Below are positions 1-19,258 of a stretch of 64,000 nt of DNA, piece by piece. Every line of letters begins with the position of its first letter. The stretch's first letter is position 1. Made by a program: the position numbers and the translations under genes. The notes beneath the pieces were generated by a model. It saw only the letters and a list, made by a program, of their open reading frames with translations. It had not been told where the DNA came from and searched no databases. This stretch comes from a virus, in the IMG/VR virus record IMGVR_UViG_3300028666_000032, positions 1-64,000 of that record, one strand, 5' to 3'.

Positions 1-815
1 GAATGAAGGCCTGTTTTACCAGCTGATGTCGCCTGCGTGGTGCCGAGGTAGTAGGCCTGAGCCGAAGGCGTCGAGGTATAAGATGGTGTCGCGGACCCGC
101 TTGTACCGTTATTGAGGATAGACCACGCCCCGGCGTTGGCCCGTGTAAAGCTTCCAGACGTGGTGATTGTTCCGCTGAGGATAGTTCCGTCAGCAGACAC
201 GCTTGTGACACTCCCGCCGCCGCCCGCACTCGCGATCTGACTGATGATTTCGCAGTTGGTTCCATCATAGATGCAGACGACTTCGACGCCGGAGCCAAGA
301 TCGGCAGAGGCTAGATTGGTGCCACCGATCTTTTTGAGGGTAAGAGCGCCCAGAGAGTTGACATTGACCGTGGCGCTGCCGGTGTTCGAGAAGTTGGTGA
401 AAAAACAATAGGGCTGACCGCTGACATAAGCCGTTGGCGCTGGCGAATAGGTAAGGACATAGGCGTTCGCTGAGCCTGTTGTGGTGGGGCAAGTGCCAAG
501 TGGAACGCCATTGCTGAGAGGAACGAACTGGCTCCCGGTATAAGAACCCCATTTGACCCATGCGGAGCCGCTGTATAACTCCATCAAGTTGTTGGTGGAG
601 TCATCGTAGCATGTGCCTTCCACCTGATAGCTGGGAGGGCTTGCACCGGAATTGCACGAGTTAATCGCTTGCATGGCAGAATTGATGTTCTGCACCAGCG
701 TCAGGCCGGGATAGGGGGAGATTGTCGGGAAGGTGCCGGATGCCAAAGCGTTCTGGGAAGCATTAGCCGGGATAGCCAGCAGGCACAGCAAGGCAGCAAG
801 TAGTAGTTTCTTCAT
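1..815 (-). CDS. fibre-like adhesin with signal peptide (partial)
   Basis: The frame starts at ATG 815 and runs off the left edge; 271 residues are visible. Residues 1-19 look like a Sec signal peptide: Lys-Lys, a Leu/Ala core and an A-N-A cleavage motif. The remainder is rich in Ser, Thr, Gly and Asn with few charges, as in phage fibre and appendage proteins. It overlaps the preceding gene by ATGA and lies downstream of the tail-tip genes, a usual position for a receptor-binding protein. The signal peptide is unexpected for a virion protein and is shared with two other adhesins in this window. The role is inferred from position and composition only. Confidence 0.75.
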   Translation of the reverse strand, partial: MKKLLLAALLCLLAIPANASQNALASGTFPTISPYPGLTLVQNINSAMQAINSCNSGASPPSYQVEGTCYDDSTNNLMELYSGSAWVKWGSYTGSQFVPLSNGVPLGTCPTTTGSANAYVLTYSPAPTAYVSGQPYCFFTNFSNTGSATVNVNSLGALTLKKIGGTNLASADLGSGVEVVCIYDGTNCEIISQIASAGGGGSVTSVSADGTILSGTITTSGSFTRANAGAWSILNNGTSGSATPSYTSTPSAQAYYLGTTQATSAGKTGLH

Positions 816-1018
816 TGGCGGCGTTCCCCCGGATTTGAAATATCGATTTCGCCGTTGATGTCTTGTATGCAGACCGCGCCCGATACTTCGCCTTTGGCAC
901 AGGCGGCCTGAATTTCGTTAAGTGTCGGATTTGAATGAATTTTGAGAAAGGCAATACCACCCGCACTGGCGAGAATTGCTGATATGAGAGCCGCCTTTAA
1001 TGCGGTACGATTAACCAT
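812..1018 (-). CDS. small membrane-anchored protein
   Basis: A 68-residue protein with an N-terminal hydrophobic segment (about residues 8-26) and a polar C-terminal half with two Cys. Most likely a single-pass membrane or secreted protein. Its stop overlaps the start of the adhesin gene (ATGA), and it follows the tail-tip gene by 18 bases, so it belongs to the tail operon. No family recognised. Confidence 0.6.
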   Translation of the reverse strand: MVNRTALKAALISAILASAGGIAFLKIHSNPTLNEIQAACAKGEVSGAVCIQDINGEIDISNPGERRQ

Positions 1019-1036
1019 GTAAAGCCTAAGTCTGGA

Positions 1037-4036
1037 TCACCACGCCGTCGCGGTCCATGCGACCACTCTTACCACATTACTACCGCCATTCACAACGCCG
1101 ATAGTAAACCCGGTCTCGGTCGGCGTCCCCATTACAACAAGATCGCCGGCCACAGCGTTGACAATCTGGGCATTTACGATGGGAACTGCATTGAATTTAT
1201 TGGTGAATGTGACGGTCGAACTGCCCCCGCCAGCGGTCGAAAGGCTCCCCGTCTGGGTGAGCTGCGGAACGTCGACCGTATAGCTCAATTGGGAAAGGAC
1301 TGCCGTGACTTGAGAAGAGAGGCTAATGAGAATTATGCGAAACTGTATGGCGTTGAAGGTATAGAAGCCCGGCACCCAATTCTGCCAGCCCTGATAGGTC
1401 GAGCCGCCATTGGTTGAAAGGTTAATCTGCGGTTGTGCGCGTACCAGAGCCTGGGAAACGCCATCCAAAATATCCTGCACGGTGATCACATCGCCTGTGG
1501 TGATGATATCGCCCGTGTTCACATTTTCGCCTGCGAGAGAGTAGTCAATCATAACCTTGCAGTTGGCGACGTAATTTGAGGTAAAGGTCTGGGTTGATGT
1601 GTAAGTTCCAGGGGAGACAACGCCCTTTGACGCCAGCACATCGCTATCGACGATCACATCGGTATCTGTAAGAATATCCGACGTAGCCAGTTCAACAACG
1701 TTGCTCAGGGATAGATAAGTGGCACCCCCAGAGCATGTTCCCGGAAAATTATGGGCTGCTTCATCGTATGTTTCGATCAGGTTCAGCGGCACTGACGGCG
1801 TGGTGACGACAATCGATGGCGGACTGCTTGAATAGACGGGCACGCCGGTCGGAGTGTAATAAAGCGCCGTCACCCAGTAGGTATCTGAGCCGTAAACATC
1901 GAAGCTGGTCTCTGATGTAACGCCGACGACCGATGCCGAGATGAAATCCGACCCCTTGCGGACTTCGTAGTAGATGGGAGTCCGGATATCGGCGACGGCC
2001 GTCCAGTTCAGTTGGCCAAGAAACTGGTTATAGCTCACGCTCAGCATGTCTGGGTTGGCAAGAGGCGTCAGAAGCGCCAGTCCCAGGATCTTATAGGTAT
2101 AGGGCGCTACTTCATCGAGCGTCTGCAATCCGCCACCCCACACATTGAAGCTGCAGAATTTGAAATACATCGTCGTGTTGATATAGGCCTGGTTTGCATC
2201 GTAGCGGAAAATACCGGCATCAAGTCGAGCGAAGGCCGAGCCGATCGCGTGCGCGCCAATCGTGGACCCATAGCATCCGCGGTTAAGATAGGACAGCGTA
2301 TATTGGTTCGTCCCGGTCAGAACATCGTTGCCGAATGCAATCAACTCACCGTCGACATAGCAGACGGTGTTCAACGCTGTAGCATCAGTTTCTGTTGCCG
2401 CATTGTTCAGCTCTCCATCGCTTTCCGCCATATCGATCTCAAGCAGGCTGGCGGTATCGATGTTGTTACTGTTGGGCAGCGGCGTGAAGCTTGACAGGTC
2501 CGCCGTGAGGACGCCCATGCGAGACTTGCTGAGGAACTGCGCAAGATATTGATAAGTCACTCCATCCGTGGACACCCAAACATTGCAGCCGCCCCATAAC
2601 GGATTGAGACCACTGATCGCGATATCGACTTCGACGGCTGCGGCCTGAAGCAGGGCAAGCGGCGTTTCGAAAAAGACTGGCGGATTTACGATGCCGGGAT
2701 CGAGGTTATAATTCGGGACATAACGGGTTGGACCGAAGTTCGGGTTGACAATGGCGGTGCCAACAGCACCGGGAATTTCCTCTGCCTTGAACGTCAGCAT
2801 GCCGTCTTTTTCGTCTTCCTCAATAGAGACGATACGGACCGGCGTGTTGCTAAGCCCGAGATTTGCATCGGTCAGGCCAATGATATCCATGGGGTCCAGC
2901 AGGATGTAATTCCACGGCAGCTTGAACTCGTAGGTACAGCGCACAAAAATCTGCCGGTTCATCCAAAGCTGCGCCAAGGTCTGTGCCAGGATCTGATCGG
3001 TCACATGGTGCGCACGCAGCGTTGGCGCCGTCCGGACACCGTAAAGATCGATCAGCGAGTCATCGAAGGCCTGATAGGTATCTACGTTGTATTGGTCCCC
3101 CCGATTAACAAACTCTATCGGCACCTGATTATAGACATCCGCCGCATCGGTACGCGTGCAGGTTATGGGATCGCTGTCACCGTCATGAATGAGATCATCG
3201 TCCCCGATCTGGTATTGCGGGGTGAGGTTCGGGATGTAGGTGACCCCGTTTCCGGAAACCGCCGTATCGCCATATGGCACGGCTGACAGAACGCCCTGTG
3301 AGGGCAGCCAGACAAACTCGCTATTGAGCGTGCCCATCCACTCTTTGAGCCACTCGGAAGCCTGCCGTTGCTGATCAATCAGCGGCGAGATGAAAAAACC
3401 GTTTGCCGTGCAATAGGTGGCTAGATCTGAGAACGTATCGACGTAGGACGCCGGAACGCCGCAACGTTCAAGGAAATCGATAATGATTTGATCCGGCGAG
3501 GCATCCTGATTGCCACTGCCGATGACCTTCAGGCCCGAGGTTTCGAAGCTGAATTGCGGGGTTTCGGAGGAGGTGCCGAGCGAGAAGTTTGGAAACCCTA
3601 CGTAAGCCAGCTCGGTATAGCCAAGGGCTTGATCCGGAAAACTGGTGGTGAGATATCCCCATGGGGCCTGCCCTTGGGTGCCCTCGAATAGAACCCCGTT
3701 CAGCAGGCCCAGGCTGGATATCTGCTTGGTGACGTAGACTGCCCCGATAGCCGCCACAGGGCCTTCGCAGAGGCCGATGGCGAAGCTGGCCGAGTAGTTA
3801 TACTCGCTACTGCCACCGCCCTTGCCACCGCCTCCTACAACGCCGCCCTTACCCCCTCCGCCGCCGACGCTGACCAGGGTCGAAGTGAAGGCCCCATACC
3901 AGATCAGGTTACCGTAGATGCGATTGGTGCCGTAGAGCAGATAAACCGGCGTGCCGTAGCTGCTTTGCTGGATTGTGATTGCTGCAGCGGCTTGGGGCTG
4001 ATTTGCTTTGGGTCGACCGCCGAAGAGGAAAGACAA
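1037..4036 (-). CDS. tail-tip / host-specificity protein
   Basis: A 999-residue protein with the layout of GTA-type and siphophage tail-tip (phage-tail_3 type) proteins: a short N-terminal part, a Gly-rich loop at about residues 57-75, then beta-rich baseplate-hub domains up to about residue 450, and a C-terminal half of beta-sandwich type. It follows the NlpC/P60, DUF2163 and DUF2460 genes in the order known from gene-transfer-agent tails. It should form the distal tail tip and contact the host surface. The Gly-rich loop (G-G-G-G-K-G-G runs) is unusually long. No start ambiguity: the ATG at 4036 lies one base from the upstream stop. Confidence 0.85.
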   Translation of the reverse strand: MSFLFGGRPKANQPQAAAAITIQQSSYGTPVYLLYGTNRIYGNLIWYGAFTSTLVSVGGGGGKGGVVGGGGKGGGSSEYNYSASFAIGLCEGPVAAIGAVYVTKQISSLGLLNGVLFEGTQGQAPWGYLTTSFPDQALGYTELAYVGFPNFSLGTSSETPQFSFETSGLKVIGSGNQDASPDQIIIDFLERCGVPASYVDTFSDLATYCTANGFFISPLIDQQRQASEWLKEWMGTLNSEFVWLPSQGVLSAVPYGDTAVSGNGVTYIPNLTPQYQIGDDDLIHDGDSDPITCTRTDAADVYNQVPIEFVNRGDQYNVDTYQAFDDSLIDLYGVRTAPTLRAHHVTDQILAQTLAQLWMNRQIFVRCTYEFKLPWNYILLDPMDIIGLTDANLGLSNTPVRIVSIEEDEKDGMLTFKAEEIPGAVGTAIVNPNFGPTRYVPNYNLDPGIVNPPVFFETPLALLQAAAVEVDIAISGLNPLWGGCNVWVSTDGVTYQYLAQFLSKSRMGVLTADLSSFTPLPNSNNIDTASLLEIDMAESDGELNNAATETDATALNTVCYVDGELIAFGNDVLTGTNQYTLSYLNRGCYGSTIGAHAIGSAFARLDAGIFRYDANQAYINTTMYFKFCSFNVWGGGLQTLDEVAPYTYKILGLALLTPLANPDMLSVSYNQFLGQLNWTAVADIRTPIYYEVRKGSDFISASVVGVTSETSFDVYGSDTYWVTALYYTPTGVPVYSSSPPSIVVTTPSVPLNLIETYDEAAHNFPGTCSGGATYLSLSNVVELATSDILTDTDVIVDSDVLASKGVVSPGTYTSTQTFTSNYVANCKVMIDYSLAGENVNTGDIITTGDVITVQDILDGVSQALVRAQPQINLSTNGGSTYQGWQNWVPGFYTFNAIQFRIILISLSSQVTAVLSQLSYTVDVPQLTQTGSLSTAGGGSSTVTFTNKFNAVPIVNAQIVNAVAGDLVVMGTPTETGFTIGVVNGGSNVVRVVAWTATAW

Positions 4037-4037
4037 G

Positions 4038-4472
4038 CTATTCCTCCCGCGGCCAAAGAGTGAAGAATTTCACCGGTCGCGGCGAGCCGTCCCGGTTCTG
4101 CGCCATCCATCCCTTGTTACCCAGATCGAGCGATACGCCAACCCCGACATAGGAATGGATTACGTGGGGCCAGTCGATGATGATCGCGCCATGCGAGAAG
4201 ACACGACCGACTTTATAAATCGCAAAATCGCCATTCTGTGGCTTTTCACCGTCGCCCAGCTCGCGCCCCAGAGACTGGCAATAGCTCAGATACCATTCCT
4301 CTCCCCGATTTAGATGAAATTGTGGGGAATAACGCGACGTAGCCGTAGGCGGAATAAGACCCACAGCCTCATAGACCGCCAGCGGAAACTGGCCACAGTC
4401 AACGCCTACATTTTTCAAGCGAGCGCCGTTGTGATGTGGCGTGCGCAGCCATGTCATGGCTTCCGTAATCAC
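4038..4472 (-). CDS. NlpC/P60-type tail peptidase
   Basis: A 144-residue cell-wall peptidase of the GTA/phage tail type. The motif V-D-C-G-Q-F near residue 25 holds the catalytic Cys, and S-H-G-A-I-I near residue 100 the catalytic His. The segment W-L-R-T-P-H-H-N-G-A matches the family's N-terminus, which supports the GTG start at 4472. Such enzymes locally cut peptidoglycan during DNA entry. The GTG overlaps the stop of the upstream GIY-YIG endonuclease gene (GTGA), so translation is probably coupled. Confidence 0.85.
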   Translation of the reverse strand: MITEAMTWLRTPHHNGARLKNVGVDCGQFPLAVYEAVGLIPPTATSRYSPQFHLNRGEEWYLSYCQSLGRELGDGEKPQNGDFAIYKVGRVFSHGAIIIDWPHVIHSYVGVGVSLDLGNKGWMAQNRDGSPRPVKFFTLWPREE

Positions 4473-5158
4473 GGATTGGCGTTGAGCCTCTTCGCTTGTT
4501 TGGCCGCTATGATTTTTGCTGTCCGACGCCGTAGATATGACGCACGCTCCCTTGGACTAAGACTTTTCCACCAATTCTTCATTCTAGCACGGGCCTCTTG
4601 CCCTATGTTAGGCCTTCTTTTTATCAGTTGTGCGGCGTTCCGTTTAGCGATTGCACTTAGTTCTTCAGGTGTGTGATTTCTTACCCTCGTTGCGGCTATT
4701 TTCTGACCGATGCGACTGCGCTCTTCTGGTGTCCGGTTGGCCCATGCCTTGAGGTTCACATTTCTTAGTATTCTAGACTTTGTCTCGGCAGAGAGACGCG
4801 CCCAGTGAGCTTTCTTTGACTTGATCCACTTGGCTCGATTTACGATCTTTGCCCCCCGTCTAAATTGCGTCTTACGTGCCCCGCTATTCCTTATGAGTTT
4901 CTTTGTCGCCTCAGAATGACAAGCTATGCCTTCTCGAAAGGTCTGATGGTTAACGAGTCGACACCCCTGTTTTCTAAGCTTTTCCATCCACTTCTGTTCG
5001 ACCAAAAAACGACCTTCAGTTCCTTCTTCCAATATCTTAAACGAATGCTTCCGGCGAAATCGTCTCTTATGATCGCGCGCGCGACGATGCGGATTATTGG
5101 TTGAGCCAACGTAAAAAGCCTTTCCATCGGCTATAAGCGCATAAATCGCGAAATACAT
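4469..5158 (-). CDS. GIY-YIG homing endonuclease
   Basis: The 229-residue protein begins with a GIY-YIG nuclease module: I-Y-A-L-I-A-D-G-K-A-F-Y-V-G-S-T-N at residues 5-21, then R-A-R-D-H motifs. The C-terminal part is basic with repeated helices (T-P-E-E-R-S-R, S-P-R-E-R-A-S), as in NUMOD-type DNA-binding tails. It has a strong Shine-Dalgarno (GAAGGAG). It is a free-standing mobile gene inserted in the tail operon between DUF2163 and the NlpC/P60 gene, and its TGA overlaps the GTG start of the latter. Confidence 0.85.
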   Translation of the reverse strand: MYFAIYALIADGKAFYVGSTNNPHRRARDHKRRFRRKHSFKILEEGTEGRFLVEQKWMEKLRKQGCRLVNHQTFREGIACHSEATKKLIRNSGARKTQFRRGAKIVNRAKWIKSKKAHWARLSAETKSRILRNVNLKAWANRTPEERSRIGQKIAATRVRNHTPEELSAIAKRNAAQLIKRRPNIGQEARARMKNWWKSLSPRERASYLRRRTAKIIAAKQAKRLNANP

Positions 5159-5222
5159 TTCTCCTTCATAACATTATTATACTGTTTGGTACAGCACGTA
5201 TTTGTCATTATATATCAATAAC
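5159..5222 (-). promoter_or_regulatory. AT-rich gap, possible promoter for the endonuclease gene
   Basis: This AT-rich gap stands out in an otherwise tightly packed operon. On the minus strand it contains a perfect TATAAT at 5181-5176, 18 bases before the endonuclease start, but no good -35 box at the right distance. It may give the mobile gene its own transcript. Confidence 0.3.
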
Positions 5223-6563
5223 TTAGTACGCGGTCTCTGGCAGAGGAATGTAAGGAGCGCCCGCAAAGTTGATCGTGTTATCATAACCCGTGCAGGTCGC
5301 GGTGGTGTCGGTTCCGGCTGTGGTCAGCGTGCATTCGTCGCCCACGCCGATCGCATAGGCGAACCCAGTCGCCATCGTGGCTATACCGTTTGCCCAACTG
5401 CTTACAGTCTGGACTTGCCCCACGTTTGTCCCACTGGTGAATTGCAGGGTCGCATTGTTGAAAAACCCGTCTGAGTTCGAAAGGCCAAGTGGAATTACGG
5501 TGGGGCTGAGCGGGCTTGTGACCTGTCCGCCCACTGAGCCTGTAGGCCCCGAGATCGTGAAACTATCTCCGACTGCTGGTTTGGACGTGAACGGTGTTGC
5601 CATGATGGCAAGATTAGGCTGCCATTGATTGATAGTAGCCGTCTGGCCATTAAGAACGCCGCTGTCGAAGGTGAGGACGGCTCCGTTAAAATCCCCGGCG
5701 CTGTTGCCGACATTGTTCTGAATGATCATGGCACTATTGCCATCCGATGCGCTTGCGTTGAATTGCTGCGTAGGAGCATTCAGGTTCTTACTGCAGCCCG
5801 GCGTGATGTCGAACGTGTCTCCTACCGATAATGCCAGCGGAAACGGTCCGGTCAGATATACAATGCCAGGAGAGTAGCTTTTGACGGCGCGGCTGATGCC
5901 GGTGTTTATGCCACTTGTCATCGCCACATTGCCGAAATTAAAATAGCCAGCCGCTTGCGCGAGATCGCAAAGAATGCTTGTGGATGAACTTCCAGCGCCA
6001 ACAGATGATGAGACAGTGAGACTGGCTTTATTGAAGGTGCAATTGCTGTCGCCGAATGTCCAGGCACACTTCGGCATGTATTGACGGCGCGGCATGTAGA
6101 TGTTGAGTAGGTATTTTGGGTCTTTGCATTTTAGTGAAGCTGTGTTGCGCGTAACATCGACTTCCGTCACTAGGCCTAGGAATACACGCACGGTGCCAAG
6201 GCTTGTATCACCGGAACTCGGCATAAAGAGACGTTCCCGTTGAACGGTTGCATTGTCCATTAGTCCTGCCCGCAGCGCCTGCAGGAAAGGTATGCTGCCG
6301 ATCATGCTCGGCTTTGCACCGAGGTTTGGATAGCAAGTCAGATCAGTTTCATCGGCATCAAGCCCACGGGTTTGCTTGAGCTTCCCGCCAACGAGAATGA
6401 CATCGTGCGAAAGAAAAGTATTGCCGCTGATGGTCAGATGCCTATCCCAACCCGTGTAACGAAGCACGGTTCCGTTCACGAGCGAAAACGTCCACAAATC
6501 CGCAAAATCCACGACCCGGTTTGAGCCGAGATAAGCGATCAAGGCTGGGCTGGCATTTTTCAT
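5223..6563 (-). CDS. DUF2163 / BR0599-family tail protein
   Basis: A 446-residue protein of the GTA and phage tail family with DUF2163 at the N-terminus (about residues 1-170, including the C-A-W-T-F-G-D-S-N-C motif) and a BR0599-type C-terminus ending N-F-A-G-A-P-Y-I-P. Between them are three similar units of about 70 residues, each with a F-x-S-G-x-N-x-G motif and an x-x-V-G-D-x-F/C-x-x-T motif; one such unit is usual. It sits between DUF2460 and NlpC/P60 as in gene-transfer-agent clusters and is expected at the tail tip. Confidence 0.85.
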   Translation of the reverse strand: MKNASPALIAYLGSNRVVDFADLWTFSLVNGTVLRYTGWDRHLTISGNTFLSHDVILVGGKLKQTRGLDADETDLTCYPNLGAKPSMIGSIPFLQALRAGLMDNATVQRERLFMPSSGDTSLGTVRVFLGLVTEVDVTRNTASLKCKDPKYLLNIYMPRRQYMPKCAWTFGDSNCTFNKASLTVSSSVGAGSSSTSILCDLAQAAGYFNFGNVAMTSGINTGISRAVKSYSPGIVYLTGPFPLALSVGDTFDITPGCSKNLNAPTQQFNASASDGNSAMIIQNNVGNSAGDFNGAVLTFDSGVLNGQTATINQWQPNLAIMATPFTSKPAVGDSFTISGPTGSVGGQVTSPLSPTVIPLGLSNSDGFFNNATLQFTSGTNVGQVQTVSSWANGIATMATGFAYAIGVGDECTLTTAGTDTTATCTGYDNTINFAGAPYIPLPETAY

Positions 6564-6573
6564 TGATACCAGC

Positions 6574-7182
6574 TCATTTGCAACTTTCGAATTCTATAGC
6601 CTTCATGCTCCATCGATTCCGGATGAAGTTCTGGAACTCTGGTTCATCCGAAAGAAATCGGCATACGAAATAAAAGGTGAAAGTTGCGGCAACCGCCGCA
6701 TTCAGCAGAGGGGCTGTAGTGAAATTGATCGTGTCGTTGGCATAGCCGAAGGAGCTACTTAGCGTGTAAGCCGAGGTCGGCGTGCCATTCACGGTCACTT
6801 GGCTAATCGCATTCACTGCCAGGATTGGTTCTGTGAAACCACCCAGCGTTCTTACCAAAGGAAATGCCGTCTGCGATCCGGTTCCGACACCCAGCGGCTG
6901 GCTTGTTACGGTATTGTCCGGGGATGATGCGTCGTTATAAAGAAAATTACCCTGCTGCCCGTTCATCTGATTGCAAAAGCCGACGAGGGTTGAGTATTCC
7001 GAATAGGGGCTGAACTGGCGCAAAAACTCGACTGGAAGAGAAAACTTCCAGCGCGGATATGACCAGTTTGACGAGCGGTATTCTACCCCACTTTGTGCGG
7101 TCATGACTTGCGTCGACCACATCGGCGTCTTGCTTATACCCCATCCGATACCGAGCAATGTTGGGAACACAGGAAGCGTCAT
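6574..7182 (-). CDS. DUF2460 tail protein
   Basis: A 202-residue protein of the DUF2460 family (GTA distal-tail type), recognised by L-P-V-F-P-T-L at the start, W-S-Y-P-R-W-K-F at about residue 40 and a closing F-L-S-D-E-P-E-F-Q-N-F. The frame is open upstream to 7269, but the ATG at 7182 gives the family's normal N-terminus and starts 7 bases after the tape-measure stop, so it is chosen. Confidence 0.85.
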   Translation of the reverse strand: MTLPVFPTLLGIGWGISKTPMWSTQVMTAQSGVEYRSSNWSYPRWKFSLPVEFLRQFSPYSEYSTLVGFCNQMNGQQGNFLYNDASSPDNTVTSQPLGVGTGSQTAFPLVRTLGGFTEPILAVNAISQVTVNGTPTSAYTLSSSFGYANDTINFTTAPLLNAAVAATFTFYFVCRFLSDEPEFQNFIRNRWSMKAIEFESCK

Positions 7183-7189
7183 ACCAGCC

Positions 7190-9985: not shown

Positions 9986-10196
9986 AACCCATTGCCTTTC
10001 TAACTCTCAGTAAAAACGTGCGGCACTCCTGCAGGATGTCCTCGCTGATCTCGCCGCGGTCGATGCGAACAATCAGGTCATGCGCCTGATCCGCAATAAA
10101 CTTTGGCGCTGGCACCGCGGCACGACCTGCCCTGTACTCATAATGGCCCTTGCCATTCATAAGGTTGTGGACTTCGGCGGTTCTCGGCTTATCCAT
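9978..10196 (-). CDS. small tail-region protein
   Basis: A 72-residue charged protein between the tail tube gene and the chaperone. It overlaps the chaperone start by 8 bases and its own start overlaps the tube-gene stop (TAATG). The order suggests a tail assembly role. No family recognised. Confidence 0.75.
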   Translation of the reverse strand: MDKPRTAEVHNLMNGKGHYEYRAGRAAVPAPKFIADQAHDLIVRIDRGEISEDILQECRTFLLRVRKAMGYE

Positions 10197-10945
10197 TATT
10201 GTGACAGTGTAATCTTGCCCAGATTGTTGGAGGCGTCGGTATAGGCCTCAAAATCGAAATCAAAGATCGAGTATTCTTGATTGCTGACCGGCATCGTGAG
10301 GTTTTGAGACACGCATTGATTGAGATGCATGTTGAACACGTTGCCCTTGTATGTGGTCGCCAGAACCATCAGGAAGGTGGGCGTTGTTCCCATCAACTGA
10401 TTGGTGAGGACAAGCTCGTTCGCCGATGTAGCAGTATATTCATAGCTGATTTGAACGGCTACCGATGCATCGCCGGAGAAGAAGGTATAGACGCCAGCAG
10501 AGACCGTATATTGCCCAACGGCAGTAAGAGAAGCCACGCGCACAAAGGGGATACCGGAGGAGGCATAGATCACGCCAAGGTCTTGGGTAAAGGTGGCGGA
10601 ATGCGTGACGGTAACGGTATAAGTGCTGCTTCCGGGAATAGTTCCTGCTTCGCCAACGGCCACGAGGAGAGCTGTGGCAGAGGTGACACCTTCACCGAAA
10701 AAGAGATCGAAATAGCTTGAGAAAATCTGGGCTGAAGTGGCTTTGCCTGTGACCTTAACCGGGCCGCGCGCCACATCTTGCGGGAACTGATACTGGCCGT
10801 GCAATTCCTTATTCTGGCCTGCGAATTTGATTTCTGCTTTTTGCAGAACACCGAATTTAACGGCTGTTGGGGTAGCACCTGCGGCGGCATCGGTGCGGAC
10901 GGCATACATGCTGCCGGAGGCGAAGTTATAGGCCAATGAACTCAT
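10196..10945 (-). CDS. major tail (tube) protein
   Basis: A 249-residue beta-rich protein (M-S-S-L-A-Y-N-F-A-S-G-S-M-Y start; K-V-T-G-K-A-T-S motif near residue 65) located between the tail completion protein and the chaperone pair, the position of the tail tube gene. The frame is open to 10972, but ATG 10945 has GGGAG seven bases before it and is preferred. It has its own upstream promoter and hairpin, consistent with the high output a tube protein needs. Confidence 0.8.
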   Translation of the reverse strand: MSSLAYNFASGSMYAVRTDAAAGATPTAVKFGVLQKAEIKFAGQNKELHGQYQFPQDVARGPVKVTGKATSAQIFSSYFDLFFGEGVTSATALLVAVGEAGTIPGSSTYTVTVTHSATFTQDLGVIYASSGIPFVRVASLTAVGQYTVSAGVYTFFSGDASVAVQISYEYTATSANELVLTNQLMGTTPTFLMVLATTYKGNVFNMHLNQCVSQNLTMPVSNQEYSIFDFDFEAYTDASNNLGKITLSQ

Positions 10946-10980
10946 CGAAGTCTCCCGAACTCCGCTGCGCAATCAGCTTA

Positions 10981-11001
10981 CAGGGGCCTAGTAAGCCCCT
11001 G
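10981..11001 (-). promoter_or_regulatory. hairpin at the start of the tail transcript
   Basis: CAGGGGC and GCCCCTG form a perfect 7-bp stem around a 7-base loop. It begins just where transcription from the promoter at 11034-11006 should start, so the mRNA would carry a 5'-terminal hairpin, which often stabilises transcripts. It could also slow read-through from upstream. Confidence 0.5.
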
Positions 11002-11005
11002 TTGC

Positions 11006-11034
11006 AAATTACCAGAATGCCGCGTCCTGTACAA
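11006..11034 (-). promoter_or_regulatory. promoter before the tail tube gene
   Basis: On the minus strand TTGTAC (11034-11029), a 17-base spacer and TAATTT (11011-11006), preceded by GC to give GCTTGTAC. The same arrangement occurs at 19263 and 34662. It lies in the 94-base gap before the tail tube gene. Confidence 0.6.
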
Positions 11035-11039
11035 GCACG

Positions 11040-11489
11040 TTAAGGGCCTCCCCACGGCACTAAAGCTCGGAGGGTAAAGAGCGCCATGCCCTGCCCGTTC
11101 AGGTATCCCGGCGCACGGTGGATAGGGCCATCTATCCAAACGTGGTTCACAACGCCGCCCAGCGTTTGGACGAAGGCGTTCGCCCCCGGCCCGGCTACGG
11201 CTAGCTCGATAGCATCCAGAAGCGTATTCATTTGGGTGTCCGGCGTCACATTCGGGTCTTGGCCTGCGTTGATGTAGAGGAAAATATCGAAATCCAGCGT
11301 GATCATGGGCGGCGTAGCCGTGCCGTTCGGATAAACGTAGTTTTCCTCGGGATTGCCCATATAGAGCGCAGGCATGGCAACCGAGTTGTCCCAAAGAGCA
11401 GGACGGCGGCTGGAATAGTTTATGCCGGGTACGACTTTAAGCAGGGCGAACAGAGCGACCGCTACCTCTTCGCGAGTTGGCGAGTTCAA
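11040..11489 (-). CDS. tail completion / terminator protein
   Basis: A 149-residue protein (R-E-E-V-A-V-A-L-F-A-L-L; L-D-F-D-I-F-L-Y; D-A-I-E-L-A-V) of the size, fold pattern and position of the tail terminator between the gp10-like protein and the tube protein. It starts at TTG 11489, which overlaps the stop of the inserted HNH endonuclease gene (TTGA). The non-ATG start may be a result of that insertion. Confidence 0.75.
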   Translation of the reverse strand: MNSPTREEVAVALFALLKVVPGINYSSRRPALWDNSVAMPALYMGNPEENYVYPNGTATPPMITLDFDIFLYINAGQDPNVTPDTQMNTLLDAIELAVAGPGANAFVQTLGGVVNHVWIDGPIHRAPGYLNGQGMALFTLRALVPWGGP

Positions 11490-12007
11490 GCAATCCTCGC
11501 AAATTTGCCGTGGTATTTATGTGCAGCTTCGCTGTAAACGAGGGATGCTAGAATGATATCATCGTAATATCCGAGATGACGCCTTTTGCCGTTATAGTTA
11601 ATTTGGACCATATATTTCCCAGCTCTCTTATTGAAACTAACCCCCTTAAAACCACTGGTATTATTAGAACCGATCTTCCTATTCAGAGAATTTTGGTAAT
11701 CGGTTGCTGTTCGCAGCTCGGCGATATTGGTCCGTGCGCGGAACCCATTTTTGTGATCCAAGTCACCTTCGGGCCATGCCCCATGAAAATGACACCAGCC
11801 TATGCGGTGCGCCTTATAGGCCCTTCCGTTAATTTTTATCACCCAATATCCCTTTGCATCCATACTCCCGGCCTTTTTACCGGCATATTTATTATTCCAC
11901 GACTTCATCTGCCAATTGGTAACAGGCCTTTCCTTCCAGAACAAATCCCCGGTTTCGCAAAAGTAGTCGAATGTGGCTCTAATAAATTCAGGAGTTGGCA
12001 GCATCAT
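11486..12007 (-). CDS. HNH endonuclease with AP2-like domain
   Basis: A 173-residue free-standing homing endonuclease. Residues about 65-110 carry the HNH core (A-H-R-I-G-W, D-L-D-H-K-N-G, R-T-A-T-D-Y-Q-N); residues about 115-165 form an AP2-type DNA-binding domain (G-F-K-G-V-S-F, W-less Y-M-V-Q-I, L-G-Y-Y-D). It separates the gp10-like gene from the tail completion gene and overlaps both. Confidence 0.85.
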   Translation of the reverse strand: MMLPTPEFIRATFDYFCETGDLFWKERPVTNWQMKSWNNKYAGKKAGSMDAKGYWVIKINGRAYKAHRIGWCHFHGAWPEGDLDHKNGFRARTNIAELRTATDYQNSLNRKIGSNNTSGFKGVSFNKRAGKYMVQINYNGKRRHLGYYDDIILASLVYSEAAHKYHGKFARIA

Positions 12008-12483
12008 TTATCCATTATAGCGTTATTAACCGCTGTTGCCATGCCATCGATGATAATATCCCTGTAATCAGTAAGCGACGAGCGGAGGTATGATCTCTCG
12101 GGAAGCGTAAATCCGCGGGCAAACTTGGCGAAAACGTCCTGTCCACCAGATTTCCAGTGCATTGCTTTTCCTGAAACCGGATACCTGTCTGGGATGATCG
12201 CACCGAACTCCTGCGCCCCTGCATATGGTGCAGTAGATGTGTTTGCATAAACCCGGCCAATAACGGAAGTTCCGCTGTCCTGCACGTCATGCTGGATCGA
12301 GGATTGCAGCCTGCCGGTGATCTTGTTGAGCACCTGCCCGCTTAGCTTATCAACCACCACATGACGCTGCAGATCAAGGGCGAGTTTTGTCACCTCTAGC
12401 ACCAACGCCCGGTGGATTTTCTCCGGCATGGCGTTGAACTTGGCGATGACTTCCGTGTCGCCCGTAATGGTAACATTCAACAT
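12004..12483 (-). CDS. HK97 gp10-like head-tail protein
   Basis: A 159-residue protein of the HK97 gp10 family: I-T-G-D-T-E-V-I-A-K-F near the start, G-R-L-Q-S-S-I at about residue 58, P-Y-A-G-A-Q-E-F-G at about residue 86 and a C-terminal helix. It is expected at the neck, joining head and tail. It follows the connector gene by one base. Confidence 0.85.
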   Translation of the reverse strand: MLNVTITGDTEVIAKFNAMPEKIHRALVLEVTKLALDLQRHVVVDKLSGQVLNKITGRLQSSIQHDVQDSGTSVIGRVYANTSTAPYAGAQEFGAIIPDRYPVSGKAMHWKSGGQDVFAKFARGFTLPERSYLRSSLTDYRDIIIDGMATAVNNAIMDK

Positions 12484-12484
12484 C

Positions 12485-13753
12485 TCAACCCGTCCATTCC
12501 AGGCGGTAGGGGGCGAGGCGTTCCTTGATCGGGTCCGTCATGGCCACAATGGTGTAGGACGATGTTTCCTGACCTCCCAGGCTCTGGCTTACCTGCCCGA
12601 TGCGTGATTTATAGCGATAGCGCTCAGCAACCAGTTCAATGCAGGCCTGCTCAACATCGTAAGGAACGTAGTTATAATTGATGAATACCGGAATTCCGGC
12701 GTCTGCTTGTGAGAATTCATAGTAAAGCCTCGGCGTATCGCCGGTCACGCAAGGCGGAACATATTGCCCTTTCTGCGGATTGGCTTTGACGGCTACCAGC
12801 GCTCCTCCACCGATATTAATACCCTGATCGAGCAGCACATCTCCGTCCTGATCTTGCAATGCATCTCCGCTTTGATCCTCGATATCCTCAGGCACGTTGC
12901 TGTTCTGATAGTAGACTCCGACATCGCCACTCCATGATCCGAAGGCAGAGAGCGGCGTAACAGTTGGAGTAATGTCGATAATTCCTTGATCCATAAGAGG
13001 CTCGCCGCCGATATAGACAATGCCGCTTTGATCCATCAATGGATTACCGCTTTGATCAAGGATCGGATTGCCGCTCTGATCGAGCAGCGGCTGGCCCATT
13101 TGCTGCGCCCCGCTCTGATCCAGAATTGGGTTGCCGTTCTGGTCGAGAATAGGTTGCGGCGGAGCCAGTACCACCGCACTCTGGTCAACCAAGGGGTAGC
13201 CATTCTGGTCAAGGATAACCTTGCCTGCCTGATCGAGCAGAAAGAAGGATGGGATCACCTGAGGCTCGTTTAGCGCAGCATATCCATAAGTGTAGTTGAC
13301 CGAGATATTGCCATAGCCTCGCACGAACGGCCCCTGGCTTCCGCCATATCCTGCGTAAGGCGAGAAGCCGACCAGTCCGGCACCGTATGATGCAACGCCA
13401 CCACCAAGGCCAATCCCCCCAATGATGGCGAGGTTCTGGGGTCTTCCGGCGAGCCCACCATAGACCTGCTCAAGGTAGTAGCCGTAGCTCGTTGAAACGC
13501 TGCTGGCGGGTATGGTCACGCCATTGATGGATAAGGCATTCACTTCCAGAACCGGCCAGTTGCGCATCTGCAGCCTGCGTTCACCGCGCCCACTCACCGT
13601 TTCGATGACTGTGGTATGACCGAGTTCGGCGCGCTGTAGGTAATTCATGATCATGCGGCTGGCGTCATTGATCATGCGCAACAGCATCTTATCGTCTGTC
13701 GTGGTTGTCAGACCGAGCCAGCTTTTGACGTTTGGGAGAGAGGTTAAAATCAT
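12485..13753 (-). CDS. head-tail connector with LDQxG repeat insertion
   Basis: The first 100 and last 70 residues match a gp6-like head-tail adaptor (S-L-P-N-V-K-S-W-L-G at the start; P-Y-D-V-E-Q-A-C-I-E-L-V-A-E-R-Y near the end). Between them lie about 180 extra residues with at least ten copies of L-D-Q-S/N-G-N-P-type units, an unusual insertion for a protein that is normally about 100-200 residues. ATG 13753 is preferred over TTG 13768 because it gives the family's N-terminus. Confidence 0.75.
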   Translation of the reverse strand: MILTSLPNVKSWLGLTTTTDDKMLLRMINDASRMIMNYLQRAELGHTTVIETVSGRGERRLQMRNWPVLEVNALSINGVTIPASSVSTSYGYYLEQVYGGLAGRPQNLAIIGGIGLGGGVASYGAGLVGFSPYAGYGGSQGPFVRGYGNISVNYTYGYAALNEPQVIPSFFLLDQAGKVILDQNGYPLVDQSAVVLAPPQPILDQNGNPILDQSGAQQMGQPLLDQSGNPILDQSGNPLMDQSGIVYIGGEPLMDQGIIDITPTVTPLSAFGSWSGDVGVYYQNSNVPEDIEDQSGDALQDQDGDVLLDQGINIGGGALVAVKANPQKGQYVPPCVTGDTPRLYYEFSQADAGIPVFINYNYVPYDVEQACIELVAERYRYKSRIGQVSQSLGGQETSSYTIVAMTDPIKERLAPYRLEWTG

Positions 13754-13772
13754 GACCTTAATTGACAAGATC

Positions 13773-16316
13773 TCATGGGATCATCCCGTAAAGTACATTC
13801 GAGATTTGCTGGGCAAAGAGCGGAGCTACTTTTCCATAACCCTGAATGGATGGATGCAGATTATCCGCGCTATCATTGGGTACATTCCAGCATGGGTTAA
13901 ATGTTGGCTCCAGATTAACATCGACAGCAAAGTCGAGAGTTTTCCCTGATCCGCTATTTTGCAAAATCCACGTATTTAAAAGTCTGGCCTGTGTGTCCAT
14001 GCCGGATGTGTAACCTCCCGTCACACAGCGGTTATATAACGTCACCATACCAGCAATAAAACCCGCTGTATGCACAGTCGAGGCCCATGAGGTGATGCTG
14101 GCCTCCAGAGTGGCGGCACTTGCTCCGCCAAATTCAATATCGTTAATCCCACCCGCCATAATGATAATATTTGGGATACCCGTTTTGAATGTTGGCGTTT
14201 CATAAGTGGTCGTTTCACTCACCATGCCTTGAAGCGTTTGGCCGCTTGCGCCAAACGTAAGAACCGAAATCTGATCGCCTATATACTCGTTTAGATTTTT
14301 CGTATAATTCCACCAATATGAGGTAGGACCGCCAGCACCAACTGTAATGCTGTCACCCTGAATAATGACGCTGGCTTTTGGCGCAATCGGGATAGAATAA
14401 CTCTGTGAAAGACCGTATTCCATCATTGCTGCATCGGAGGCACTAAGACCGGCGTTAAACGCAACCATTGCATAAGTATCACTTTGATTTGTTCCGCCAA
14501 AACTCGATCCCCCATAATTCCACTGGCCCCCGGTTGTTGTGGCAGATGTTGCCGCACCGAGGCTGACAGAATAATTATTTCTATAATATGTCACTGCACT
14601 CGTTGTGGAATTAAGGCCGACAGCAACACCATTTTCATTTGGAAGGGATTGTGCCGTTCCGAAGCCAGTCTGTGTCCCGTTTATTATCGATGATGATGAA
14701 ACAGTGCCAAAGGGACCAAGCTGAAGCCCAAATCCACCCGTTCCCAACATGAAGGGAATATTAGTTAATCTTAGAGACATATTGCCGACAACTGACCAGG
14801 CCGAGGCATTTTTCGTACTTGTTATTACTACGCCGACAGGAAGATCATATACGCCACCGGCAAGTGAGGGAGCGCCATTTTTGAGAGTGTTCAGATCAAG
14901 CAAACCGCGATTGCTGTCCGTTGCCTGCGTGGCATCGCTGCCGTTACCAGACTGATCATACCACGTAACCAATTTGAGCGTTGATGAACCCGCAAAGATT
15001 TTCATCAAATTCGTGTCCACAATTCCATCAGCTAAAAACGGGATGTCTAACTGAGCGCTATCGCTTGCGCGAATAACTTTGCAGCAATTCCCCGCATATC
15101 CGGATAACATCTTAGTGAATCCACCAGCAAAAACCGGCGTATTATTCGTCATCGAGCTAATGAATGGGGATGCACCTTTTCGTGACTGATCCCATGTTGC
15201 GCGACCGACAATTCCGGCAAGTTTGGAATTGGGATTAATGGCACCTGTCGCAGGGCCAACAAACCAACCATTGCCGCCGTTGGTCACGGGTAGATTAAAT
15301 GTTCCGCCAACATTCCCCGCAAAATAGCCGGCATAGCCACTCGGCGATGAATTCGCTGCATATAGCGCATAATTAACGGCTCCCGTATCTGTATTAGAGA
15401 AATATCCGGCATAGCCGGTATTGGCCAACCCGCTCATCACGCTATAAACGCCATAACCAGACCCCGTAGTGGCATCTGAAAGGCTAAGCACTTTCCCGGT
15501 TGATGTTGCCGATGCTGCCGAGTTCTGCAGGCTCAGGATATTGCCGTTGGTGATCGAGCTTGAACTCAGCGTAAAGGCTGTCTGTGTCGTCAGACTATTC
15601 CATGTCCATGTCTGAGCATTGCCAGCATTATCAATGGAATTGACTCCTGTCGCGCTCGTCAATGAGGAAACGGCAGAACCACCGCCCCCTCCCGGCGGAA
15701 CTGCCCATGTCCCATCGCCGCGCCAGAACGTAGACGAGGATGCGCCCGTGCCACTATTCATCTGACTTATCGATATGTTGCTCGTCAAATTAGAGAAGCT
15801 GATTGACGGCAATTGCCCAAGCGTGGCAACACCGCTGATATCAGCGAATGAGGGCTGTGACAGCGAGGGAACGCCAAGAGTTGATATGGATCTGATCCAG
15901 TTATGAGAAATGGGGGATATGCTTTCAACGCCGCCGATAGAAACTGCACTGGGGAACGGTAAGTCGTTACCTACCAATGCGCGCGCAGCAGGAACAGCAG
16001 GCGAGCCATTTAATGGCCCGGCGACGACAGTATTTGCAGCAGCGGGAGGAAGAACGCCTGTGGTCGTGACGTTTAAAACGCCATTCGTGCAATCGACTGT
16101 GTTACCGCATTGCAGGATGCCTGCCGTGATAGTGCTGCCGAGAGTGATGGTTCCCTGAAGGCTGTCACCATCAACACCGCCGCGGACGATATAGGTTATA
16201 TCACCGTCCTGGACTGGGCCACCGTCAGGATAGTCTGTGACTTTCGCTGCGAAGCAGGGCGTGACTTGGCAAAGGCCTATGAATAAGACGAATGTTAGCC
16301 TCAGTAGCCATTGCAT
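13773..16316 (-). CDS. adhesin / spike with SGNH hydrolase domain and signal peptide
   Basis: An 847-residue protein. Residues 1-24 look like a signal peptide (cleavage near C-F-A). Residues about 25-50 hold a module D-Y-P-D-G-G..Q-D-G-D-I-T-Y-I-V-R shared with the next gene. The middle has fibre-like repeats and, at about 400-500, an arabinofuranosidase-B-like segment with W-Y-D-Q-S-G-N-G. The C-terminal 200 residues are an SGNH hydrolase: G-D-S-I-T-V (catalytic Ser), G-G-I-N-D (block III) and D-N-L-H-P (catalytic Asp/His). It probably removes acyl groups from surface polysaccharide. Confidence 0.8.
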   Translation of the reverse strand: MQWLLRLTFVLFIGLCQVTPCFAAKVTDYPDGGPVQDGDITYIVRGGVDGDSLQGTITLGSTITAGILQCGNTVDCTNGVLNVTTTGVLPPAAANTVVAGPLNGSPAVPAARALVGNDLPFPSAVSIGGVESISPISHNWIRSISTLGVPSLSQPSFADISGVATLGQLPSISFSNLTSNISISQMNSGTGASSSTFWRGDGTWAVPPGGGGGSAVSSLTSATGVNSIDNAGNAQTWTWNSLTTQTAFTLSSSSITNGNILSLQNSAASATSTGKVLSLSDATTGSGYGVYSVMSGLANTGYAGYFSNTDTGAVNYALYAANSSPSGYAGYFAGNVGGTFNLPVTNGGNGWFVGPATGAINPNSKLAGIVGRATWDQSRKGASPFISSMTNNTPVFAGGFTKMLSGYAGNCCKVIRASDSAQLDIPFLADGIVDTNLMKIFAGSSTLKLVTWYDQSGNGSDATQATDSNRGLLDLNTLKNGAPSLAGGVYDLPVGVVITSTKNASAWSVVGNMSLRLTNIPFMLGTGGFGLQLGPFGTVSSSSIINGTQTGFGTAQSLPNENGVAVGLNSTTSAVTYYRNNYSVSLGAATSATTTGGQWNYGGSSFGGTNQSDTYAMVAFNAGLSASDAAMMEYGLSQSYSIPIAPKASVIIQGDSITVGAGGPTSYWWNYTKNLNEYIGDQISVLTFGASGQTLQGMVSETTTYETPTFKTGIPNIIIMAGGINDIEFGGASAATLEASITSWASTVHTAGFIAGMVTLYNRCVTGGYTSGMDTQARLLNTWILQNSGSGKTLDFAVDVNLEPTFNPCWNVPNDSADNLHPSIQGYGKVAPLFAQQISNVLYGMIP

Positions 16317-18400
16317 TGCGCCACCAGGAGATCAGAAGCATTCCATGCTGTTGATGTGCCAGTGGTGCGGCTATAGCTTGTCCACGTCACGGTTGATGCC
16401 GATGTAGGAACTGAGGCCGTCACAAGTGTTCCCACACTGGTCGAGTCAACCACGTTGCAGGCATAACCGTGAGGAGCAGCCACACCGAATGCAACAACGC
16501 CTGATGTTGCAGAGCCGCCAGTTCCCACGTTGACCGTAAATGTCGTGCTGCTTGACCCGCTGGCAACCGATGGAGAAGTCCCAAAGCCGCTGCTGATCGT
16601 GGGGGCACTCAAAGAAGCGATCACAGCATTGCCAATATTAAGGTAATTGGATGTACCCGAGGCAGGCGTATCAACTCCAGTCGTGGTGCCGAGCAGAATA
16701 TTATTTGATCCAGTCAGAAGCGTTACGTTAGCTACATTTTGGCCAAGGATGAGATTTGAGCTACCGGTCGTTATATGGTTGCCAGCAAAAGCGCCAACAA
16801 TCGTATTACTTGCCCCCGAAGTGATGGAGGCGGCGGAGTTATTGCCAACTCCCACATTGAAGCTTCCAGTAAGAGCGCCAACACTAAATGCGGATTCGCC
16901 TATAGCCACATTGTGGGAACCCGTCGTAATGGTTTGTCCGGCATGAAAACCGAGGGCCGTATTATTAGTTGCCCCTCCGGTTAAAGCCTGAAGGGCAAGA
17001 TTGCCTATACCAGCATTCCCGCCACCGCTACTATTATGAGAAGAACTTTGAACGCCCTGACCTATCGATACGTCTCCGCTGCAGCCATAAGCGCCCTGCC
17101 CTATTGCTACGGTTAAAAAACAGTTGTTGGCTGTAAGATTGGCGCCGCCCCCAATAAGCACATTCTGAAAGCCGGAAACAGCGGTGTTTCCAGCCTGATA
17201 GCCGATAAAGGTATCAAGATATCCTACCGTTAAAGCGGAGCCAGCCTGGTAGCCAATGGCAGTATTATTAGTGGATGTGGAAAGTGTAAGAGCCTGATAA
17301 CCAATCGCAGTGTTTTGTGCAGCCGTCGTAAGCGTAGCCAGTGCGCTTGCGCCAATGGCTGTATTGAACAAACCAGTTGTGGTTTGATTTAAAAGAGCAG
17401 ATGCACCGATGGAAACGCCCGTAGTATCAACTCCGTTATCCGGCAACGACAGGCCATTGCCGCCGTTTAAGTTAAGGCCTTTGGTGGTGGCGTTATATTG
17501 CAGGCCCGTAGCATCGCTGACCGCTGACGTGCTGGATGCATAATAGGATAGATCGGGTGTCGTGCCGCTGTTGACCGTGCCGCTTCCGCCACCACCGGTA
17601 TATTGCGGAATGTTCAATGAATTTCCGGACAGCACCGCAGCGCCTGACGTTCCCGTGGTCGTGAGCGTTAGCTGCCCTTGATATTGAGGAATGTTCAGAG
17701 CATTTCCGCCAGTGAGAACGGCTGCGCCGGTCGTGCCCGTCGTCGTCAGAGAGATGCTGCCGCCAGCCGCGCCGTTCGATGCGGCCGTGATACGGCCATT
17801 CGAGTCGACCGTGAGATTCGTGTTCGTATAACTGGCGGGGGTAACAGCCGTGGTCGGCAGTCGTGCTGCGCTCAGTGTACCGCTTGCGATATTGGTAGCG
17901 TTCGTGGTGTCGGTTGTTGCCGAAGGAGCAAAATTTGCTCCATTTGACTTCGTGCAGGTTAGCGATCCACTTGAAGCGAGAGTGCAATCGCCGCTGACCG
18001 CATGGGTTCCCCATGATGTGCCAGATCCGATAAGAATATTCCCGGCGGTCGCGGTCGTTGTGCCAAGGGAGGCGCCGTTGATTGCAGCTACCGTCGCCGC
18101 GACAGACCCGGTGCCGCTGGCCGTGACATCGCCGGTAAGTGCCGTAATACCGCTACCACCACCGCCAGTGACAGTAATAATGCCTCCAGAGCAGGACGTG
18201 CCGGAGCCGCATTCGAGAAGACCTGGAACCGTCGAGCTTCCAACCGCAACGGTGCCATACATGCTGGTATTGCTGCGGACGATGTAGGTAACGTCGCCAG
18301 CCTGCAAATTGCCGCCGCTTGGATAGTTAGGAACCTGTCCAGCAAATGCTTGGCCACTTAAAATGATGCCCAATGCAAGGGCGGCGTATCCGAGCTTCAT
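16301..18400 (-). CDS. YadA-like adhesin with signal peptide
   Basis: A 699-residue protein. Residues 1-20 form a signal peptide (cleavage near A-F-A), followed by the same N-terminal module as the SGNH spike (N-Y-P-S-G-G..A-G-D-V-T-Y-I-V-R). Residues about 300-560 are YadA-head-like repeats (N-T-A-I-G-Y-Q-A motifs), a left-handed beta-roll of trimeric adhesins. ATG 18400 is chosen over TTG 18406 because it starts the signal peptide. Its end overlaps the SGNH gene by 16 bases. It lies between capsid and connector genes, where head decoration or neck fibres may be encoded. Confidence 0.75.
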   Translation of the reverse strand: MKLGYAALALGIILSGQAFAGQVPNYPSGGNLQAGDVTYIVRSNTSMYGTVAVGSSTVPGLLECGSGTSCSGGIITVTGGGGSGITALTGDVTASGTGSVAATVAAINGASLGTTTATAGNILIGSGTSWGTHAVSGDCTLASSGSLTCTKSNGANFAPSATTDTTNATNIASGTLSAARLPTTAVTPASYTNTNLTVDSNGRITAASNGAAGGSISLTTTGTTGAAVLTGGNALNIPQYQGQLTLTTTGTSGAAVLSGNSLNIPQYTGGGGSGTVNSGTTPDLSYYASSTSAVSDATGLQYNATTKGLNLNGGNGLSLPDNGVDTTGVSIGASALLNQTTTGLFNTAIGASALATLTTAAQNTAIGYQALTLSTSTNNTAIGYQAGSALTVGYLDTFIGYQAGNTAVSGFQNVLIGGGANLTANNCFLTVAIGQGAYGCSGDVSIGQGVQSSSHNSSGGGNAGIGNLALQALTGGATNNTALGFHAGQTITTGSHNVAIGESAFSVGALTGSFNVGVGNNSAASITSGASNTIVGAFAGNHITTGSSNLILGQNVANVTLLTGSNNILLGTTTGVDTPASGTSNYLNIGNAVIASLSAPTISSGFGTSPSVASGSSSTTFTVNVGTGGSATSGVVAFGVAAPHGYACNVVDSTSVGTLVTASVPTSASTVTWTSYSRTTGTSTAWNASDLLVAQCNGY

Positions 18401-18431
18401 AGTCAAGCCAATTCTGCGCCAATGGCGCGTT

Positions 18432-18666: not shown

Positions 18667-18708
18667 AAGATAAAGCCCGACCCGACTTTCACCGGATCGG
18701 GCTATCTT
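18667..18708 (-). terminator. terminator-like hairpin
   Basis: AGCCCGACCCG (18674-18684) pairs with CGGATCGGGCT (18693-18703) with one G-U pair around an 8-base loop, and AAGAT/ATCTT extends the stem outwards. On the minus strand it follows the HNH gene and is followed by CTTTATCTTAAG, only moderately U-rich. It may terminate in either direction. Confidence 0.5.
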
Positions 18709-19206: not shown

Positions 19207-19214
19207 CGCGCCTC

Positions 19215-19258
19215 CTATCCGTTGTGAGGCGTGTAAATTACGACAACACAACGGATAG
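19215..19258. repeat. 12-bp perfect inverted repeat flanking the -10 box
   Basis: CTATCCGTTGTG (19215-19226) and its exact complement CACAACGGATAG (19247-19258) enclose 20 bases. The right arm lies in the spacer of the minus-strand promoter and the left arm just past the expected transcription start, so it could be an operator or a transcript hairpin. Confidence 0.6.

Follow-up and report, generated by a model that had tools for sequence, protein, structure and literature searches.

Why should fibre-like proteins of a tailed phage begin with Sec-type signal peptides (SPs)? By the textbook, tailed phages are assembled in the cytoplasm, and the first-pass annotation of this DNA had taken it as a premise that virion proteins stay in that compartment, a premise put in question by the data on SP-carrying fibres presented here. 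The locus belongs to the viral record IMGVR_UViG_3300028666_000032 (69,878 bp), of which positions 1-64,000 form the stretch of DNA analysed (the window). The first ~133 bases of the record recur at its end, the copy being imperfect in the last bases; therefore, the record was handled as circular (69,745 bp), against its IMG/VR class of linear, and the gene interrupted at base 1 resumes at the opposite end. This gene had been described as a partial one at 1-815. It does run off base 1 (3-815), but it is not truly partial, as it extends to record position 69217 and closes across the junction to a fibre of 447 aa (F1). Downstream of F1, four further SP proteins are encoded on the same strand outside the window. 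Thus, at least seven proteins of this phage, fibre-like or small and of secreted type, have predicted export signals and paired cysteines.

The seven genes fall in two blocks of the structural region. F1 lies directly after the tail-tip gene, and an SGNH spike-like protein and a YadA-like fibre are encoded as a pair flanked by the probable capsid gene and the connector gene (Table 1); a place within the structural gene block is in agreement with phage fibres or spikes. No SP-less fibre gene was recognised in this genome, and promoter and terminator counts around the SP cassette were at chance level.

Table 1. Positions of the SP genes, their N-terminal segments and the neighbouring structural genes (window coordinates unless marked as record positions).
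Feature	Position	Strand	Basis or remark
F1, 5' part: SP (residues 1-19), N-terminal fibre module, tail-fibre module (~113-190), Cys-rich C-terminus	3..815	-	
F1 signal peptide, residues 1-19, cleavage between ANA and SQ	759..815	-	heuristic scorer
Tail-tip protein, upstream of F1	1037..4036	-	PF13550, PF23666, phrog_1101
Head-tail connector, next after the SP pair	12485..13768	-	PF05135, phrog_442
SGNH/GDSL spike-like protein, 847 aa, SP and shared module	13773..16316	-	Pfam PF13472, E = 2e-9
SGNH shared post-SP module, residues 24-77	16086..16247	-	alignment with YadA-like fibre
SGNH signal peptide, residues 1-23	16248..16316	-	
YadA-head-like fibre, 699 aa from ATG, SP and shared module, AIG..A repeats	16301..18400	-	
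YadA-like shared post-SP module, residues 21-71 (YPxGG....GDxTYIVR ... C(5)C)	18188..18340	-	
YadA-like signal peptide, residues 1-20	18341..18400	-	
Probable major capsid protein, upstream of the SP pair	19292..21088	-	gene order and relatives; phrog_13692 (function unknown)
235-aa SP protein	record 66137-66844	same as F1	Laminin_G_3, E = 4.6e-17
420-aa SP protein	record 67137-68399	same as F1	family search: no match
126-aa SP protein	record 68409-68789	same as F1	
90-aa SP protein	record 68900-69172	same as F1	weakest SP call

The signal peptides in the window are MKKLLLAALLCLLAIPANA for F1 (cut before S), MQWLLRLTFVLFIGLCQVTPCFA for the SGNH protein (cut before A) and MKLGYAALALGIILSGQAFA for the YadA-like fibre (cut before G). 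Sec-type signals had been noticed at the start of all three proteins, and scoring bore this out. With a self-written heuristic scorer, which is not SignalP and for which 3.8 was taken as the positive threshold, values of 5.07, 3.95 and 4.85 were obtained for F1, the SGNH protein and the YadA-like fibre, and in 2000 trials these were rarely reached by shuffles of the N-terminal residues (0.05%, 0.3% and 0.05%, respectively). The cut proposed by the scorer for F1 lies 6 residues after the site between ANA and SQ. By the same heuristic, all three N-termini display the n-h-c pattern, with a positive charge in the n-region and a hydrophobic h-region, and an AxA-like site, as is typical of Sec export and cleavage by signal peptidase I (SPI), and neither a lipobox nor a twin-arginine motif was seen in them. 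The circular genome has 80 genes of at least 100 aa; seven of them reached 3.8, with 0.44 expected after shuffling, and six of these seven positives belong to the SP set. The gene for the 90-aa protein is too short for this count; its score was 3.73, which was reached by 3.55% of shuffles. None of the core structural genes of this phage scores as an SP gene. In 20 stretches from cultured phages, 7 of 256 genes passed the 3.8 threshold, two of them annotated Bcep fibres. The initial observation is therefore confirmed and larger than had been stated, and its interpretation, as discussed below, is partly supported.

Two readings would deprive these N-termini of an export function. Firstly, start codons might be wrong, the SP-coding stretch being untranslated and synthesis beginning downstream. 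The YadA-like open reading frame (16301-18406, minus strand) opens at a TTG, and the ATG at 18400 that gives rise to the SP has a poor ribosome-binding site, which is compatible with a wrong start. However, the same pattern occurs in seven genes and in other phages, ribosome-binding sites are clear at some of the seven starts (e.g., that of the 90-aa gene), and the SP region lies inside the SGNH/YadA-like alignment described below; wrong starts seem very improbable. Secondly, the hydrophobic N-terminal helix might be an uncleaved structural part of a virion fibre that is never exported. This would accord with the usual cytoplasmic assembly of virion proteins, and the heuristic scorer cannot exclude plain hydrophobic helices, but the n-h-c pattern and AxA-like sites in all three window proteins argue against it. 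In summary, the SPs are probably functional, and Sec export of the fibres, with export and cleavage deduced from sequence, is well supported.

The SGNH and YadA-like proteins had also been said to share a further module. Indeed, they align with 37.8% identity over 74 aa (E = 2e-11), a segment that spans SP and module, and the module (YPxGG....GDxTYIVR) contains two cysteines 6 residues apart, C64/C70 in the YadA-like and C70/C76 in the SGNH protein. Searches of viral contigs for close relatives of the SGNH protein, of F1 or of the SP plus module returned no confirmed relative. The DNA pattern of the module (YPxGG..GDxxY) gave four matches, none with an SP just upstream and three of them near-copies of one unrelated protein.

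Beyond the shared N-terminal part, the SGNH protein has complete GDS, GxND and DxxH blocks at residues 654, 723 and 818, as found in hydrolases of this type. Its C-terminal part and the mature part of the 126-aa protein gave mean pLDDT values of 30 and 33, respectively, in single-sequence structure prediction. The whole YadA-like protein has no Pfam match (E<=0.001); it matches phrog_6002, annotated as 'virion structural protein' (E = 3e-16), and the tail spike family phrog_4636 (E = 2e-7). Its middle module is present in proteins of cyanophages and other phages (12 matching records), and an SP was found in none of the six examined from these records. Acquisition from host adhesins had been proposed for such proteins, that is, capture of YadA-type autotransporters and lipases together with their own SPs. 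The YadA-head-like repeats, the SGNH domain and the SPs, which are a bacterial feature, would fit this origin. However, a C-terminal YadA anchor, the mark of an autotransporter, was detected neither in the whole protein nor in its last 119 residues (Pfam, E<=0.1), no other Pfam adhesin match was obtained, and the closest modules reside in fibres and structural proteins of phages or prophages. The homologue search in bacteria that had been recommended points the same way: a profile of SP plus module had five weak matches in 398 Pseudomonadota genomes, the four readable ones look like membrane transporters, presumably of the TRAP type, and none of these four is a true relative. Because no YadA anchor was found, the SP fibres are not bacterial adhesins, and we regard their capture from a host as hardly credible.

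Cysteine content was examined next. An even number of cysteines is reported to be a mark of exported disulfide proteins (PMC7678975). Mature cysteine counts were even in all seven SP proteins of this phage (14, 2, 4, 4, 2, 6 and 8), and in 26 of 62 non-SP genes of the same genome when Cys-containing products of at least 100 aa were considered. For the YadA-like fibre, the pairs predicted are 64/70, 139/149, 427/440 and 648/696. An automated count for this genome and related loci, free of hand choices and made without F1, the 90-aa protein and the Bcep genes, gave 16 even and 3 odd counts for SP proteins versus 191/234 for the rest (p = 0.0008).

For comparison with ordinary fibres, a set of 20 SP proteins was hand-picked from SP-positive genes of fibre- or virion-like look, with cleavage sites also set by hand. 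It comprises the 7 proteins of this phage, 11 from six contigs with a related portal (L006, L028, L031, L032, L033 and L041) and 2 from Burkholderia phages. Cleavage of the L033 protein was shifted by 3 residues, which changed its count from 11 to 10, and the 90-aa protein was cut between SEAQ and V, which left its count unchanged; a 550-aa fibre of L031 that is cut by the contig end and an unclassified 253-aa SP protein of L027 were left out. Even counts were found for 18 members, an odd one only for the 575-aa fibre of L028, and one member, the 126-aa protein of L032, had no cysteine and was excluded from the parity count. Among 22 fibre or spike genes without an SP from cultured phages, 8 had even and 10 had odd counts, and 4 had no cysteine. 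Parity therefore differs between the two groups (18/1 versus 8/10, p = 0.001), where the 22 are a convenience sample and both sets ignore relatedness. Also, the curated SP proteins contain 1.56 Cys per 100 aa versus 0.49 for the SP-less fibres, a threefold enrichment. Paired mature cysteines, frequent but not obligatory in proteins exported by Sec and SPI, are thus present, and their pairing and enrichment, a sign of passage into an oxidising compartment, favour export over a merely structural helix. Neither the even-Cys bias (18 of 19) nor the enrichment would be expected of cytoplasmic fibres, and such a helix is missing from 12 prophage fibres that have the F1 module. The structural role once considered for the signal-like helix is accordingly disfavoured, and we think it improbable.

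The modules of F1 indicate where the SP was placed. Its tail-fibre module matches phrog_28171 (E = 1.3e-10), and F1 shares 52% identity over 56 aa with the tail fibre of phiOH2. Members of phrog_28171 were found in 17 of 299 Pseudomonadota genomes, and the F1 module was well aligned in 12 of the 17 loci (blastp, E<1e-3). An SP at the 3.8 threshold was absent from all 17, the 12 aligned prophage fibres included. The N-terminal module of F1 corresponds to phrog_8309/24121, and the mature N-terminus matches two phage families at positions 3-56 of 312 (E = 5e-4) and 12-70 of 522 (E = 9e-4) of their profiles. As both families lack an SP and are matched right from their first residues, the signal of F1 lies ahead of an ordinary fibre N-terminus, and there is no room for an SP in the relatives. 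A search with phrog_22789 had no match anywhere, controls included. Homology to phage fibre modules was found for F1, the YadA-like and the SGNH protein alike. As the same fibre modules occur without an SP in ordinary phages and prophages, the SP looks as if it had been added to standard fibres, and both SPs and cysteine pairs appear to have been gained by ordinary phage fibres.

Gene order in related phages was compared as well. The tail-tip search yielded one locus and the capsid search four. In L004, L005 and L016, the closest relatives that were found, the connector comes right after the capsid gene with no fibre between them, which marks the SGNH/YadA-like pair as an insertion. The same slot holds three SP genes in L028, in the order capsid-SP-SP-SP-connector. 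Two SP fibres of L031 share SP and a four-Cys module (E = 8e-11), one of them having YadA-like repeats, and this pair is a close parallel to the pair in the window. Among 38 portal-related contigs, many of them fragments, 12 carried some SP-like gene by the scorer, and in 6, those represented in the curated set, the SP genes were fibre- or virion-like. Within the stretch read, no SP fibre was found in any of six cultured phages with a related tail tip. Absence of SP fibres from the closer relatives makes the trait an accessory one, which would be expected also of secreted non-virion cargo.

Such cargo is the main rival explanation: fibre-like but non-virion proteins would be secreted to the periplasm or the lysate, where they would alter the host envelope. 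Examples would be an SGNH esterase that trims surface polysaccharide, or decoys that counter progeny binding to debris or the entry of superinfecting phage. SPs and cysteine pairing would fit any exported protein, the SGNH blocks are complete, and the SP pair is an accessory insertion missing in the three closest relatives. Also, receptor binding might be the task of the tail-tip protein itself, in which case the SP proteins need not be parts of the virion. However, the genes stand among virion genes and carry fibre modules instead of envelope anchors, and neither a lipobox nor a YadA anchor nor any other adhesin domain of Pfam was found in them; F1 comes after the tail tip, where a fibre is usually encoded; and, on this reading, the genome would be left without a recognised fibre. 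We consider secreted non-virion proteins unlikely, even if they are the most serious competitor. Export for coating the host cell, as suggested initially, retains some plausibility, but the head and tail gene order and the lack of an outer-membrane anchor are better accommodated by maturation of fibres in the periplasm.

We therefore lean, with slightly better than even confidence, towards phage fibre and spike proteins with added functional Sec SPs, which would fold with disulfides in the periplasm and dock on virions at lysis. This proposal builds on the SPs, the module sharing, the pairing and enrichment of cysteines, the phage origin of the modules and the gene positions, all of which were established by computation; actual export and cleavage, disulfides, periplasmic folding and docking at lysis are what we infer from them, and virion membership is deduced from gene position and domain homology. 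Fibre precursors would be threaded through SecYEG and cut by signal peptidase I. In the periplasm, the fibres would then fold, associate into oligomers and acquire disulfides, heads and tails being built meanwhile in the cytoplasm, and the breach of the envelope at lysis would bring the two pools together and allow docking. N-terminal domains are usually the docking domains in fibres. F1 and its downstream neighbours might dock on the tail tip, and the SGNH/YadA-like pair on a common head or neck site by means of the shared N-terminal module with its cysteine pair. The benefit would be disulfide-stabilised fibres. More tentatively, and with somewhat less than even confidence, we propose a recurrent two-compartment mode of assembly, with capsid and tail made in the cytoplasm and the whole recognised fibre and spike set (the six larger proteins and the 90-aa protein) exported, oxidised in the periplasm and joined only at lysis. 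This mode would have originated by SPs being repeatedly put before ordinary fibre modules and by acquisition of cysteine pairs.

Export and oxidation of fibres, if real, could make infectivity reliant on the Sec system, the signal peptidase and the Dsb enzymes of the host, and fibres would be added at the time of lysis. Filters that use export signals for sorting phage from host proteins would misfile real fibres. Absence of an SP has been read as a sign that a fibre-like protein is of phage origin: the lack of signal peptides in phage DGR proteins is noted with the words 'this supports their phage origin' (PMC6199706). In the available part of another study, dsbA is reported to be a host factor of modest effect for some Klebsiella phages, an effect ascribed to host surface proteins, and Tat signals were sought in phage proteins and none found; Sec-exported fibres are not addressed in that part (PMC13412088). 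In the open-access literature, no paper on signal peptides of tailed-phage fibres was found.

Among known systems, fibres with homologous modules, namely the phiOH2 fibre, prophage fibres of the phrog_28171 type, S-CBS2 gp30 and the ct2G2228 fibre, differ from those described here in that none of those examined has an SP. Such ordinary fibres also have few cysteines, and the phiOH2 fibre and S-CBS2 gp30 have none. Like the YadA-like fibre, trimeric autotransporter adhesins of the YadA type combine an SP with YadA-head-like repeats, but the fibre has no detectable anchor and stands in a phage structural gene context. Acinetobacter phage Effie gp240 likewise offers an SGNH domain in a phage protein; in contrast to the SGNH protein studied here, it has no SP and is placed in the tail module. 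The closest precedent is the GenBank note on Bcep781 gp49 and Bcep1 gp51, 'possible tail fiber; possible signal peptide domain'. Together with BcepNY3 gp50, these proteins of Burkholderia Naesvirus are annotated tail fibres or spikes with an N-terminal SP, like those of the present phage, and mature cysteine counts are again even (14 in Bcep781 gp49 and 4 in Bcep1 gp51). In the Bcep781 and Bcep1 fibres, the mature N-terminus is predicted to be QFAPGQ, after a cut behind AFA or ALG. They differ in host, in body modules and in not lying between capsid and connector. Window proteins have no match to phrog_32740, the Bcep-type fibre family, which was matched only by the C-terminus of the L006 protein, so homology of the Bcep781 type was not found; also, the Bcep phages have one SP fibre per genome in the part read, versus seven SP proteins here. 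Nevertheless, with an annotated SP fibre in cultured Bcep781-like phages, the question of fibre export is directly testable.

Although classed as linear, the record seems to represent a complete circular genome of ~69,745 bp, because an imperfect repeat of ~133 bp is common to both of its ends (base 1 of the window and the far end of the record). The serine recombinase domain encoded on the plus strand indicates that the phage may be temperate, and the lipoprotein-like ORF (LLCSC-ASS, at an internal start), together with a membrane ORF located two genes upstream of it, may represent lysis/spanin genes.

Features of the phage and of the related viral contig L006
Feature	Location	Strand	Remarks
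Homing-endonuclease-like ORF	window 4469-5158	-	GIY-YIG or HNH look, by eye
Homing-endonuclease-like ORF	window 11486-12007	-	GIY-YIG or HNH look, by eye
Head-tail connector gene	window 12485-13768	-	427 aa
13-pair stem, then T-rich tail	window 18674-18703	-	between HNH ORF and signal-peptide cassette
Homing-endonuclease-like ORF	window 18733-19263	-	GIY-YIG or HNH look, by eye
Lipoprotein-like ORF and membrane ORF	window 29584-30835	-	possible lysis/spanin genes
Serine recombinase domain	window 41354-42085	+	PF00239, E 1.2e-36
Small signal-peptide protein	L006:6782-7264		upstream of portal gene

Within the structural block, three ORFs look like homing endonucleases of the GIY-YIG or HNH type when judged by eye from their sequences. 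In the region around the signal-peptide cassette (SGNH protein and YadA-like fibre), the number of sites combining a stem with a T-rich tail is at chance level.

The C-terminus of the small L006 protein matches phrog_32740, the family of the Bcep-type fibre of Burkholderia phages. The head-tail connector contains a run of LDQSGNP-like repeats, an odd insertion for a connector, and comprises 427 aa, whereas its homologues in the related contigs L004 and L005 have ~300 aa.
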